From Alteromonadaceae bacterium (lineage in GTDB: Bacteria; Pseudomonadota; Gammaproteobacteria; Enterobacterales; Alteromonadaceae), in assembly GCA_027013165.1 (NCBI GenBank), contig JALUXV010000170.1, positions 1-64,000 of the forward strand: a DNA stretch of 64,000 nucleotides, given 5' to 3'. Every line of letters starts with the position of its first letter. Within the stretch, counting starts at the first letter, position 1. Positions 28,121 through 33,952 of this stretch are shown one piece after another. Below the pieces are notes generated by a model. The model did no database searches, was not told the DNA's origin, and was given only the letters and a program-made list of their open reading frames with translations. Position numbers and translations under genes: made by a program.

Positions 28121-29503
28121 ATGACCTTGTCTGCTACTGAAACTATTATCGCACAAGCCACGGCACCAGGCCGTGGCGGTGTTGGTATCATTCGTGTGTC
28201 TGGCCCCAACGTAAGCGAAATAGCAAAGTTACTTGTGCCAGTGCCCTTGTCCCCCCGCCTAGCCACTTATACCTCATTCGTAAATGGTGACAATGACACC
28301 ATAGACCAAGGTATAGCATTGTATTTCAAAGCGCCTCACTCGTTCACGGGAGAAGACGTATTAGAGCTACAAGGTCACGGAGGTCAAGTGGTCATGGACA
28401 TGCTTGTTGATGCGGTATTAGCAACGGGCAAGGCACGCATGGCTGCACCAGGCGAATTCAGTGAACAAGCGTTTTTGAATGACAAACTAGACCTTGCACA
28501 GGCCGAGGCAATTGCTGATTTGATAGACGCAAGCTCTAAGCAAGCCGCTAAAAGTGCATTGCGATCACTACAAGGTGAGTTCTCTACACAAATCCAAATG
28601 CTTTCTGAACAAATCATTCATTTGCGAATGTATGTAGAAGCTGCAATTGATTTTCCAGACGAAGAGATCGACTTTTTGTCTGATGGAAAAGTTGCCGGAG
28701 ATCTGGACGCCATCCTCGCCAAACTCGACGATGTAAAAGCACAAGCAAAGCAAGGATCTTTACTGCGCGAAGGCATGCAAGTGGTCATTGCAGGGAAGCC
28801 GAATGCTGGAAAATCGAGTTTACTCAATGCCCTAGCGGGTAAAGAGAGTGCCATAGTTACCGATATTGCGGGAACAACACGAGATGTACTGAAAGAGCAT
28901 ATTCACATTGATGGAATGCCCCTTCACATTATTGATACAGCGGGACTTCGAGACAGCCCAGATAAAGTAGAGCAAATTGGTATTGCCAGAGCCTGGCAAG
29001 CTATCAATGAAGCTGATCACGTTCTGTTTGTTACCGATTCCACCACAACACAAACCTCGGACCCTTATCATATTTGGCCTGAATTTATGGGACGCCTACC
29101 TGCGGGAATTCCAGTGTCGGTAGTCAAGAACAAGGCCGATCTGTCAGACATTACCGTGGGTCAACAAACCGTATCAACAGAGCACGGTGACGTGGTTGTT
29201 ATCAATTTATCTGCCAAAGAAAACCGTGGTGTGGATACGCTAAAATCTCATTTAGCCAATACCATGGGCTTCGACGCGACTACAGAAGGTCAGTTTACTG
29301 CACGACGTAGGCACCTAGACGCGCTAGACCAAGCACATCAACTAGTGATCACAGGTAAACAACAGCTAGACGATGCAATTGCAGGAGAGTTACTCGCTGA
29401 AGATTTGCGCTTGGCACACCAAGCCCTTTGCGAGATTACAGGGGAATTCACCTCAGACGATCTCCTTGGTAAGATATTCTCATCATTCTGTATTGGGAAA
29501 TAG
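28121..29503 (+). CDS. mnmE: tRNA uridine-5-carboxymethylaminomethyl(34) synthesis GTPase MnmE
   Basis: [37 protein letters not shown]-terminal IFSSFCIGK. Confidence 0.98.
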
Positions 29504-29507
29504 CCAT

Positions 29508-29942
29508 ATGTCACATCACTATTCAATTATTGTCGGATCCATGCTTGGAGCATCTGAATATGTCGCAGAAGCCTTAGAGGCAGAGATCACCGCCAAAGGC
29601 GATACCTGTGAGTTACATTTCGATCCTAAATTGTCAGATATTAATAAAACATCAACATGGATAGTGTGCACGTCAACTCATGGCGCAGGCGAACTTCCTG
29701 ACAATATACAACCCTTTGCAAACGACTTGAAAAATACCGATCTCAGTGAAACTAAGAGCTATGTCATAGGGTTAGGTGACACTAGCTACGACACTTTCTG
29801 TCATGGTGCTCTGTCAATTGCATCTATACTCAAGGCGCAAGGGGCTACGCTGTTATCTGAACCACACTTAATAGATGTACTCACTCACCCTATTCCTGAA
29901 GAAAACGCTGTGGAGTGGTTTAACGAAACCATTGTTGCGTAA
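29508..29942 (+). CDS. mioC: Flavodoxin-like protein MioC
   Basis: SIIVGSMLGASEYVAEAL; VCTSTHGAGELPDNIQPF; position between mnmE and oriC. Confidence 0.93.
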   Translation: MSHHYSIIVGSMLGASEYVAEALEAEITAKGDTCELHFDPKLSDINKTSTWIVCTSTHGAGELPDNIQPFANDLKNTDLSETKSYVIGLGDTSYDTFCHGALSIASILKAQGATLLSEPHLIDVLTHPIPEENAVEWFNETIVA

Positions 29943-29947
29943 CAACA

Positions 29948-30616
29948 ATGTCCTCCGCCTATACCGATGCCGAACTCGCTGCACTTGCTTCACCGATTAG
30001 CAATTCCGCAAGAGTGCTTTACATGCTTGGTCTACGACCAACAGCAAATCGGGATACCGGCGCTACGGAACCGGTGCAGTACAAACCTCTGTTGGAACTT
30101 CTCAATGGCGATGGTAAATCAGAAACATTTTTGCGAGGAAGACAAATAAACAGCTTGATTAGGCATTTGGAAGACGCTGGCCTTATTAATGTTCCATCCA
30201 CCGTTGATTTATCTCATTCAATTAATGGAATGTCTTTAGTACTTCCCCTACTTCACGCGTCCTCAGACAATTTTTCATCTCTACACACGTCTCCCACCGC
30301 AATGCACACCCAATGGAAACCCAATGATCAATTGTTTACAGATCTAGCTGTGCTGGTGGGAATAATAGACAAAACCTACGACGAACACGATGTTGGAGAA
30401 TTTATTGCCTATTGGTTGGGGAAACCTCATCAACAATTCACCCAATATCAATGGACACAAAAGTTCGTTAATAACCTTAAACAAAAGCGTATAAACAGCG
30501 GTTACACTGCGACTACTCAAATTGGTACGCAAACCGTAAAAGTTGAAGCCGGATTAGAAGCGGACGATAATGCCAAAGCCCTTGTAGAAAAATACGCCAC
30601 GTTAAAGAAGACTTAG
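29948..30616 (+). CDS. DnaT-like replication/primosome protein
   Basis: C-terminal segment DVGEFIAYWLGKPHQQFTQYQWTQKFVNNLKQKR resembles the E. coli DnaT C-terminal FISYWQAEGK..HHVQWQQKLARSLQ pattern; adjacent to a DnaC-like gene. Confidence 0.7.
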   Translation: MSSAYTDAELAALASPISNSARVLYMLGLRPTANRDTGATEPVQYKPLLELLNGDGKSETFLRGRQINSLIRHLEDAGLINVPSTVDLSHSINGMSLVLPLLHASSDNFSSLHTSPTAMHTQWKPNDQLFTDLAVLVGIIDKTYDEHDVGEFIAYWLGKPHQQFTQYQWTQKFVNNLKQKRINSGYTATTQIGTQTVKVEAGLEADDNAKALVEKYATLKKT

Positions 30617-30620
30617 TACT

Positions 30621-31445
30621 ATGGATCGCATAACCGATAAAATTGCCAACTTGGCAAAAGCGCTGAATAAACCTTTAGTCACCGGTAATAACTACACCGA
30701 TTACAAAACACTCAGAGCCACCTACGAGGCGCAGGCAAACCAAGAGGTACAAGCACTACAACAACGTACTAAAAAAGCGCGTGTAGAGGCTATACACGGC
30801 CGTTCAGACCTAAACCCTAAATGGACGTTCGCAAATCTTATCGAAGACAGCGAAGACGTGATCGAAGCGGTATCAATCGCCCAATCTTTTATTGCCGCTC
30901 ATGACGATCCTGCATGGCGAGCAAGCGGCTCTCACATGATGATTTTTTATGGTGACTACGGTCGTGGTAAGTCTCACATTGCCGGCGCAATTGCACACCA
31001 ACTTATTGATCAATATGAAATATCAGTACTTTACCGCCAACTTTCTACGCTTCAAGAAATGCGTTACTTCTCATACGACTTTAATGCGCAAGACAACATA
31101 GGTCAGAAATTCCGAGAAGCAACGGAAGAATTACTCGATGTTGACCTTTTGATTCTAGATGAAGTCTGCGTTAACGAGACAGTCTTGAAAAAAAATGCGC
31201 AAAGTTGGTTAGGCAATGTGCTTCGCCAACGATTGGTAAACAAGAAAAACTGTATATTGATTACAAACCACAACTTAGTAGAACTAGAACGAGCCCTTGG
31301 ACGCTACTGTTTTGAATCAATCAAAGAATACGATACATACAAAGTAAAGTTCTCTGGACCGAGTCGCAGATCCAACTTATATCAAGATGAAAGCGATCAC
31401 ACAGCTTCACAACCGACTACTTATCAACCTAATCAAGTAAAATAA
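30621..31445 (+). CDS. DnaC-like AAA+ ATPase, putative replicative helicase loader
   Basis: Walker A GDYGRGKSHIAGAIAHQLI; Walker B DVDLLILDEVCVNE; FKFSGPSRRSNLYQ-type C-terminus (KVKFSGPSRRSNLYQ); DnaC/IstB-like layout. Confidence 0.85.
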   Translation: MDRITDKIANLAKALNKPLVTGNNYTDYKTLRATYEAQANQEVQALQQRTKKARVEAIHGRSDLNPKWTFANLIEDSEDVIEAVSIAQSFIAAHDDPAWRASGSHMMIFYGDYGRGKSHIAGAIAHQLIDQYEISVLYRQLSTLQEMRYFSYDFNAQDNIGQKFREATEELLDVDLLILDEVCVNETVLKKNAQSWLGNVLRQRLVNKKNCILITNHNLVELERALGRYCFESIKEYDTYKVKFSGPSRRSNLYQDESDHTASQPTTYQPNQVK

Positions 31446-31465
31446 TACAAATAAAATCGATTAAA

Positions 31466-31489
31466 GGCGCTGAACTGAGCGCCTTTTTT
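31466..31489 (+). terminator. Rho-independent terminator of dnaT/dnaC-like operon
   Basis: GGCGCT-GAACTG-AGCGCC-TTTTTT immediately before the GATC-dense origin. Confidence 0.85.
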
Positions 31490-31940
31490 GATCAAAACCA
31501 TTACAACAAATAGAGAACGTTAACCTAGATCGTTAGATCTATTTCGTCCGCTGTGGAAAGATCTCTTCCACAAAGAGATCCGTCTACAGTACAGGATTTT
31601 AAAGGAAAGTATAAAAATACAAATGATCTAACCTACACTTTATCCCCAACACGATCACAAGTTGATCAGTCCTGTGGATAGGATCATACAACCCTTTGTG
31701 TATAAGCTTTGGTTGTAAATTGAATAGAATTTTTAAATTTACCGCTTGTGGATAAATACCCTGCTTATACACAAGAAGATCTAGTGGTTATAGATCTGTG
31801 TTTCCCAATGTTATTGATCGCGTAAGATTATGATCTCAATTAGCTTTATTGAGTTACTAACAGATCATGGTGATCTTAATAAATATAAAAATAAACAGAT
31901 CTAAAGAAGATCTTAAGATCATTAAAACCCATCAACCACA
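31490..31940. other. oriC: Chromosomal replication origin oriC
   Basis: 18 GATC sites counted in about 430 bp; perfect DnaA boxes TGTGTATAA (31697-31705), TGTGGATAA (31747-31755), TTATACACA (31765-31773) plus near matches TTATCCCCA (31640-31648) and TGTGGATAG (from 31673); AT-rich GATCT-containing segment (about 31860-31925) next to mnmG, like the E. coli 13-mers. Confidence 0.92.
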
Positions 31941-32050
31941 CAATTGAAGAAAATTTAACCATTTTATTTAGCCTATAAGTCAGCTAAAATACGCGCCCTT
32001 TTTTCAGACACACTGAAAACATCCAACGTGAGTAAAGAGTGAGGTTAACC

Positions 32051-33952
32051 ATGTATTATCACCAAGCATTTGACGTCATCGTAGTAGGCGGTGGACATGC
32101 TGGTACTGAAGCGGCATTAGCAGCCGCTCGAATGGGTGCTAACACGTTACTATTAACACACAATATAGAAACCATTGGACAAATGTCTTGTAATCCTGCG
32201 ATAGGTGGGATCGGTAAAGGCCACTTGGTTAAAGAGATCGATGCGTTGGGTGGAGCAATGGCACTTGCCATAGATCAGGGTGGTATTCAGTTTAGAACTT
32301 TAAATTCAAGTAAAGGGCCAGCGGTCAGAGCGACTCGAGCGCAAGCAGACAGAACACTATACAGGCAGGCTATAAGAACAATAGTCGAACAACAAGAAAA
32401 CCTAACCTTGTTTCAACAAAGCGTAGATGATCTTATAGTTGAAAATAACCGTGCAGTTGGCGTTGTTACTCAGATGGGTCTGAAATTCAAAGCCAAAACT
32501 GTAGTATTAACCGTAGGTACTTTTCTAGGTGGAACTATCCATATCGGGCTTGAAAACTATCGCGGTGGCAGAGCGGGTGATCCCCCGTCTATTGCTTTGG
32601 CAGAGCGTCTACGTGCGTTACCATTCAGAGTAGACAGATTAAAAACCGGAACCCCTGCACGTTTAGATGCACGCACTTTAGATTTTAGTGTGATGCAGCC
32701 TCAGCCCGGAGATGATCCGGTTCCCGTATTTTCATTTATGGGTGATCGCACAATGCACCCAAAACAAATACCGTGTTACATCACGCATACCAATGAAAAT
32801 ACGCACGATATTATTCGTGGAGGGCTAGACAGATCGCCCATGTTTACCGGCGTAATTGAAGGTGTCGGGCCAAGATACTGTCCAAGTATTGAAGATAAAA
32901 TTACCCGTTTTGCAGATAAAAATTCTCATCAGATTTTTGTTGAACCTGAAGGGTTAAACAGCATTGAAGTGTATCCAAATGGTATTTCTACAAGTTTGCC
33001 GTTCGATGTGCAAATGGCATTCATTCGCTCTATCAAAGGTTTTGAAAATGCCCATGTGGTGCGCCCAGGCTACGCGATCGAATATGACTTTTTTGATCCA
33101 AGGGATCTAAAACAAACCCTTGAAACCAAATATATCGACGGCCTTTTCTTTGCAGGTCAAATCAACGGTACTACGGGTTACGAAGAAGCGGGAGCGCAAG
33201 GTCTAATCGCTGGTGCTAATGCAGCATTACAAGTGAAGGAGCAAGACCCTTTAACTTTACGTCGAGATCAGGCATACATGGGTGTACTTATCGATGACCT
33301 TGCAACCATGGGAACGAAAGAGCCCTACCGCATGTTTACCAGTCGTGCTGAATACCGATTATTATTGCGCGAAGACAATGCTGATAGTCGTTTAACCGGT
33401 ATTGGCCGCGAAATAGGATTAGTAGACGATGCCCGATGGCAAGCCTATAACACTAAGATGGAAGCGGTCGAGCAAGAGTTACAAAGGGTACGTGGTCAAT
33501 GGATCCACCCTGATCACGCAGCCACGCCCAAACTCAATACGTTTTTAAAAAATCCAGTGAGCCGCGAACACTCGCTAGAAGAGCTGATAAGACGCCCGGA
33601 AGTCTCTTACGATCAACTTATGCAAGTTGAATCATTAGGCCCAGGGTTGGAAGATCCTATTGCTGCTGAGCAAGTTGAAATTCAAATTAAGTACGCTGGA
33701 TATATTGCGCGTCAAATGGACGAAATTGCTAAAACCCAGCGTCATGAAAATACGCTATTACCTGTTGACCTAGATTTTAGTAAAATATCCGGTCTTTCTA
33801 ACGAAGTGGTCGCAAAGCTTACCGATGCTCGCCCTGAAACCATAGGCAAAGCTTCGCGTATCTCAGGGATAACCCCCGCAGCTATTTCGTTGTTACTGGT
33901 CTATTTGAAAAAACACGGCATGTTGAGAAAACAGGAACCATTGAGCGCGTGA
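32051..33952 (+). CDS. mnmG: tRNA uridine-5-carboxymethylaminomethyl(34) synthesis enzyme MnmG (GidA)
   Basis: [46 protein letters not shown]. Confidence 0.99.

Follow-up and report, generated by a model that had tools for sequence, protein, structure and literature searches.

A DnaT-domain protein and a DnaC-type loader beside oriC as the probable replicative-helicase loading system of the Alteromonas-Glaciecola clade

Introduction

How a bacterial lineage exchanges the machinery that loads its replicative helicase is the question raised by two adjacent genes, here called T and C, which lie beside oriC in the genome of an Alteromonadaceae bacterium (the source genome). Helicase loading is essential, yet the loader has been swapped several times in bacteria, and why DciA and DnaC never occur together is a standing question. 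Brezellec 2016 (PMC5109545), whose data set includes Alteromonas macleodii and Aeromonas hydrophila, described dnaC as domesticated in a limited group of Alteromonadales that has lost dciA, and reported that depletion of DciA in Pseudomonas aeruginosa blocks initiation after origin melting. The domestication itself is thus already known. What appears to be new, as far as we could find, is the insertion on the origin side with its empty-site comparison, the constant winged-helix/DnaT partner, the co-loss of PriB and the common branch with Aeromonadales. We consider it probable that the Alteromonas-Glaciecola clade relies on T-C as its resident system for loading the replicative helicase, T-C being a phage-type cassette that entered once and took over from DciA.

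Results

Gene order and replication origin

The window, that is, the whole 64-kb stretch of DNA that was analysed, carries on its plus strand yidC, a yajQ-like gene, mnmE, mioC, T, C, oriC, mnmG, rsmG, parA and parB, in this order. All gene, domain and motif coordinates given below refer to the plus strand. A tight array begins with mnmE (trmE; 28121..29503), assigned from its ORF and synteny, and continues with mioC (29508..29942), encoding an FMN-binding flavodoxin-like protein (NCBIfam MioC, E=1.9e-45), T (29948..30616; 222 aa) and C (30621..31445; 274 aa). The gaps are 4 nt between mnmE and mioC, 5 nt between mioC and T, and 4 nt between T and C. A palindromic stem followed by a T run, likely an intrinsic terminator, lies between the array and oriC (31463..31491, plus strand). 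Given the tight gaps and this element, the four genes appear to be co-transcribed toward oriC, but not through it.

The origin (31492..32050) is recognizable by its GATC density, its DnaA boxes and the mioC-oriC-mnmG layout known from E. coli, and it is placed on the same side of mnmG and mioC as in that bacterium. Between C and mnmG there are 18 GATC sites in 605 bp, versus 1.8 expected from the window average, the first of them overlapping the terminator tail. Five DnaA boxes, each with no more than one mismatch, lie at 31640, 31673, 31697, 31747 and 31765, and mnmG (32051..33952) marks the far side of the origin. A search of T and oriC for iterons that would mark a captured phage origin returned short two-copy repeats only. 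Compared with dciA-bearing relatives, carriers of T-C have a longer oriC (median 744 versus 398 bp) with more GATC sites (median 20 versus 10).

C is a DnaC-type AAA+ protein

Sequence profiles and the predicted fold identify C as a DnaC-type AAA+ replicative helicase loader. Its AAA+ domain, named IstB_IS21 in Pfam, belongs to the DnaC/DnaI/IstB branch and contains Walker A (GDYGRGKS, 30951..30974), which is invariant among 41 relatives, and Walker B (LLILDE, 31146..31163), as well as a sensor-like ITNH. A GPSRR motif (31356..31370) stands at the position of the C-terminal arginine motif SYRSR of DnaC, and the Walker and arginine motifs are nearly invariant across relatives. Oddly, the positions of E. 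coli DnaC R220 and R222 are occupied by S233 and K235; in E. coli DnaC, R220 is the arginine finger and R237 belongs to the C-terminal arginine motif. The serine in place of R220 counts against a loader role of C. DnaC-type models rank first in the NCBIfam search, and C also matches PHROG 50 (DnaC-like helicase loader) with E=2e-29 and PDB 6qel with 3e-9 from the single sequence. The best solved relative by sequence is E. coli DnaC, with a profile match of 2e-11 that covers DnaC residues 1-242. A Foldseek comparison of the predicted structure (mean pLDDT 78.7) ranks E. coli DnaC, as seen in the DnaB-DnaC complex, first (E=9e-13), with IstB further away. An N-terminal helical region, as expected of a DnaC-type loader, is predicted by the model (helices at residues 4-14 and 28-59; 30621..30797), and the profile aligns from DnaC residue 1; the predicted helices lie at the place of the helicase-binding domain of E. 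coli DnaC. At the other end of the protein, a disordered tail (residues 247-274; window 31360-31442) finishes with a near-invariant Y-x-P-N-Q in Alteromonadaceae, which is absent in Aeromonadaceae and is possibly a docking peptide.

T combines a DnaT domain with a distinct N-terminus

The partner of C consists of a predicted winged-helix-like N-terminal domain (residues 1-105; 29948..30262) and a DnaT ssDNA-binding domain (residues 117-184; 30296..30499). The latter matches Pfam PF17948 with E=1.7e-19 (69.7 bits versus a cut-off of 25), and its model superimposes on crystal structures of DnaT 84-153 with TM-scores of 0.80-0.85, normalised to the crystal structures. All 41 T members match PHROG 1408 at their C-termini. 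The N-terminal 105 residues are modelled by AlphaFold2 with pLDDT mostly >90. Their similarity to winged helices in the PDB is weak (best probability 0.72, E=0.6), as is the profile match of the N-terminus to phage initiators (E=0.0075, probability 5%). In a viral fold library, the best matches of T are phage helix-turn-helix/replisome-organizer proteins and DnaT-domain proteins. The N-terminal half of T has no detectable relation to that of E. coli DnaT, and T therefore scores far below the cut-off of the curated full-length DnaT model NF002770 (NCBIfam; 30.7 versus 201 bits), aligning over residues 117-189 only. A Pfam search of T gave no match to DnaD-type domains. The C-terminal half of T also occurs on its own, with a similar conserved tail and surrounded by phage structural genes, in one IMG/VR contig (L238) and in two genomes of carriers (G331:C27:3959-4345, locus L181; G290:C17:42704-43048, locus L182), where the surroundings look like Mu-like prophages by their genes.

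A sequence-only reading of this DNA had described two tightly packed ORFs between mioC and oriC, and both are present. It had seen the two Walker motifs in the second ORF and placed it near DnaC, which NCBIfam, PHROG 50 and the fold bear out, C being nearer to DnaC than to IstB. The first ORF had been called DnaT-like; T does match DnaT rather than an unrelated fold, and the description holds for the C-terminal half, by Pfam and by structure, whereas it does not extend to the N-terminal half.

T-C and DciA exclude each other

In the survey of 150 Alteromonadaceae genomes, in which C was detected with scores >400 bits, T and C occur in the same 53 genomes, representing 19 genera. DciA is encoded by 91 genomes, and not one of the 150 has both systems. 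The remaining observation concerns six genomes with neither, pointing to a diverged DciA or a third solution; detection is thus imperfect. Named carriers include Alteromonas, Salinimonas, Aestuariibacter, Marisediminitalea, Neptunicella, Bowmanella, Lacimicrobium, Aliiglaciecola, Paraglaciecola and Glaciecola. The search of the source genome revealed no DciA, no second DnaT over the threshold and no second strong C homologue; its assembly comprises 586 contigs with an estimated contamination of 6.5%, and complete relatives agree with it.

The order mioC-T-C is kept in 80/80 named loci, and in all 77 that have mnmG in reach the pair is followed by oriC and mnmG. The distance from the T stop to the C start is mostly 2-70 nt, or the genes overlap shortly. 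Even the most diverged genus (g92) has mioC-T-C in five loci, two of which contain other genes between C and mnmG. That this position is conserved in 19 genera reflects constraint or an absence of rearrangement and does not prove a function. In the MnmG tree the carriers form one clade (support 99/99) inside the dciA-bearing family, suggesting one acquisition; the exclusion of DciA accordingly counts as one evolutionary event in Alteromonadaceae, to which published parallel cases can be added. In 19 of 20 dciA-bearing relatives, mioC is directly followed by oriC, in a gap of ~400 bp, and then by mnmG, so that the site of the pair is empty. The usual place of dciA in these relatives is between lpxC and the M23/secA genes. 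There, dciA is absent in 10/10 carriers examined, and the gap from lpxC to M23/secA is 192 bp in the source genome. Taken together, the empty site and the dciA-free lpxC-secA interval point to an insertion of the pair between mioC and oriC and to a removal of dciA at a separate place, with C as the resident gene in place of dciA, as expected of a DnaC-type loader.

PriB is absent from carriers

PriB was detected in 20/20 dciA-bearing relatives tested (E <1e-28) and in 0/22 carriers, which represent all 19 genera; it is absent from the source genome too. The carriers being one clade, this amounts to one co-loss in Alteromonadaceae. No PriB was found in four Aeromonadaceae and three genomes of another family, f3; Aeromonadales, being likewise PriB-less, add a second, parallel case. 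Six weak PriB matches in carriers and Aeromonadales proved on inspection to be SSB. The absence of PriB from carriers appears to be new, no report of it having been found in the open-access literature. In E. coli, PriB recruits DnaT to PriA (PMC13220808); a T that works independently of PriB would, hypothetically, explain the loss.

Origin of the pair

In the tree of C, the proteins of Alteromonadaceae, Aeromonadaceae and family f3 are split from E. coli DnaC and from all sampled phage loaders with support of 100/97. The homology of T extends over the entire protein, N-terminal part included, in Aeromonadaceae and in two f3 genomes. This shared branch and the full-length homology of T raise the possibility that the two domestications counted in the 2016 study (PMC5109545) share one source: the pair may have passed from one lineage to the other, or both may have captured it from a single phage lineage. 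AU tests of the branching gave p=0.116 and 0.375. The first value concerns placement of the Alteromonas loader outside rather than inside Aeromonadales; the outside placement is not rejected, and nesting inside Aeromonadales is thus not secured. The genomic context differs: in Aeromonadaceae, neither mioC nor mnmG is found within ~1.5 kb of the pair. INPHARED contained no close phage relative of T and two weak matches for C. Among IMG/VR viral contigs, no C relative was confirmed by tblastn, and the matches to T comprised essentially just the DnaT-domain half.

In family f3 (L031-L033, L184-L198) the loaders are of the DnaC type and DciA is absent, with a full-length T beside only two of the loaders; from the others T may have been lost, or it may have been replaced. 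In two Aeromonadaceae, dciA-like matches were discarded as chance hits that contain stops and fall in unrelated genes. A 4.94-Mb Aeromonas caviae record with a resident T-C (NZ_AP026896.1) is labelled a plasmid and is probably the chromosome.

The sequence-only reading had pointed to dciA, to dnaT and dnaC copies elsewhere and to synteny as informative. In the source genome no dciA and no further DnaT or strong C homologue were found, and the place beside mioC in all 80 named loci, within one clade, bears out a conserved position; a single prophage-like context, which it had named as a possible refutation, is at odds with 19 genera and no adjoining phage genes. Its proposal of a relocated pair does not agree with the empty site in relatives and the lack of a copy elsewhere in the source genome. 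The independent domestication that it had suggested is not supported as worded, since C groups with the loader of Aeromonadales, apart from E. coli DnaC and the sampled phages.

Discussion

Against the background of what was observed directly, namely sequence, fold, gene order, the exclusion with DciA and PriB and a single carrier clade, we infer how DnaB might be bound and loaded and how the labour might be divided between T and C. The pair, laid out as a phage initiator-loader cassette, would have inserted a single time, where mioC meets oriC, in the clade's ancestor and taken over from DciA, with dciA being deleted from between lpxC and secA. C would bind DnaB via its N-terminal helices, crack and hold the ring, and use ATP to have it released on ssDNA. 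The DnaT domain of T would bind ssDNA and its winged helix probably duplex DNA, such that T could bring C-DnaB to the melted origin and probably also to PriA-bound forks. The role of C as the DnaB loader for initiation is well supported by its fold and the exclusion with DciA, whereas that of T as a recruiter is plausible from its domain and its constant pairing with C. The architecture suggests a phage-type initiator-loader cassette, the N-terminal sequence match to phage initiators being weak. More tentatively, T-C may have replaced two host systems at once, DciA in initiation and PriB in restart, with T as a DnaD-like coupler that delivers C-DnaB both to oriC and, at broken forks, straight to PriA; this extension is possible rather than probable.

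Could C instead be a transposition helper of the IstB type, or a prophage loader that is here by chance? The Pfam name of its AAA+ domain and its kinship with phage loaders would fit, but neither transposase nor phage genes adjoin C, it occupies the same place in 19 genera, its fold and N-terminus agree better with DnaC than with IstB, and the carriers form one clade in the loader tree as in the MnmG tree, consistent with vertical inheritance. We regard this explanation as highly improbable. It is also unlikely that T-C serves replication restart only, as a PriA-T-C primosome, while another, unrecognised loader acts in initiation at oriC. Such a restriction would suit the DnaT domain of T, E. 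coli DnaT acting in restart with PriA and PriB (PMC13220808), and the lack of PriB in carriers. However, E. coli DnaC does both jobs, DciA, the gammaproteobacterial initiation loader, is missing exactly where C is present, and T-C sits at oriC.

A more serious alternative, to which we give slightly less than an even chance, accepts T-C as a loader and has a phage cassette domesticated independently in Alteromonadaceae, unrelated to the event in Aeromonadales. Two separate gammaproteobacterial events are published (PMC5109545), the genomic sites differ between the two groups, and the AU test (p=0.116) does not reject an Alteromonas clade outside Aeromonadales. Conversely, the C proteins of Alteromonadaceae, Aeromonadaceae and f3 lie on one side of the 100/97 branch, the homology of T spans the whole protein and takes in its N-terminus, and neither INPHARED nor IMG/VR yielded a closer phage relative. 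An Aeromonadales-like lineage may have passed the pair on, or both groups may have drawn on one unsampled phage lineage; we consider this about as likely as independent domestication. Replacement of DciA by a resident T-C, which we favour, is unusually legible here, with one clade, an empty site in sister genera and dciA cleanly gone from its usual place. The second loss, that of PriB, hints at the role of the incoming pair. Alteromonas is cultivable, and the swap of a core loading machinery is therefore directly testable.

Comparison with known systems

The resident DnaC of Brezellec 2016 (PMC5109545) represents the same phenomenon, a domesticated dnaC-type gene with loss of dciA; the main text of that paper contains no mention of DnaT, PriB, a T partner, the place beside oriC or a shared ancestry of the loaders. 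T-C resembles dnaT-dnaC of E. coli in gene order, with a DnaT-domain protein preceding the loader (2 nt apart in E. coli), and in the DnaC fold. However, the E. coli genes are far from oriC and T-C is beside it, the N-terminus of E. coli DnaT is unrelated to that of T, E. coli DnaT acts together with PriB, a protein kept in E. coli and lacking in carriers, and E. coli DnaC is on the other side of the loader tree from C.

Phage cassettes (PHROG 1408, 1032 and 50) consist of an O-like initiator followed by a DnaC-like or lambda-P-like loader. There, a DNA-binding N-terminus and a DnaT domain, the plan predicted for T, precede the loader gene, which overlaps; in phage locus L126, for instance, a DnaT-domain initiator is overlapped by a DnaC-like gene. 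Many phages in IMG/VR have DnaT-domain initiators, with lambda-P-like loaders encoded downstream in 4/4 tested. T-C differs from these cassettes in being resident in the chromosome, vertically inherited and next to oriC, and in its shorter T. Lambda O binds iterons within its own gene, whereas no iteron array was found inside T. DopC/DopE, reportedly described by Brezellec et al. 2017 as helicase matchmakers derived from lambda O/P, share with T-C the idea of a phage initiator-loader pair replacing DciA, but their loader is lambda-P-like without an AAA+ domain, unlike the DnaC-type AAA+ C.

DnaD of Bacillus subtilis combines a winged helix with ssDNA binding, the coupler plan proposed for T, although T lacks a Pfam DnaD-type match. 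To our knowledge, carriers have no second coupler equivalent to B. subtilis DnaB. In the PriA-DnaD-DnaB-DnaI system of B. subtilis, the coupler DnaD serves both oriC and restart without PriB (PMC13220808).
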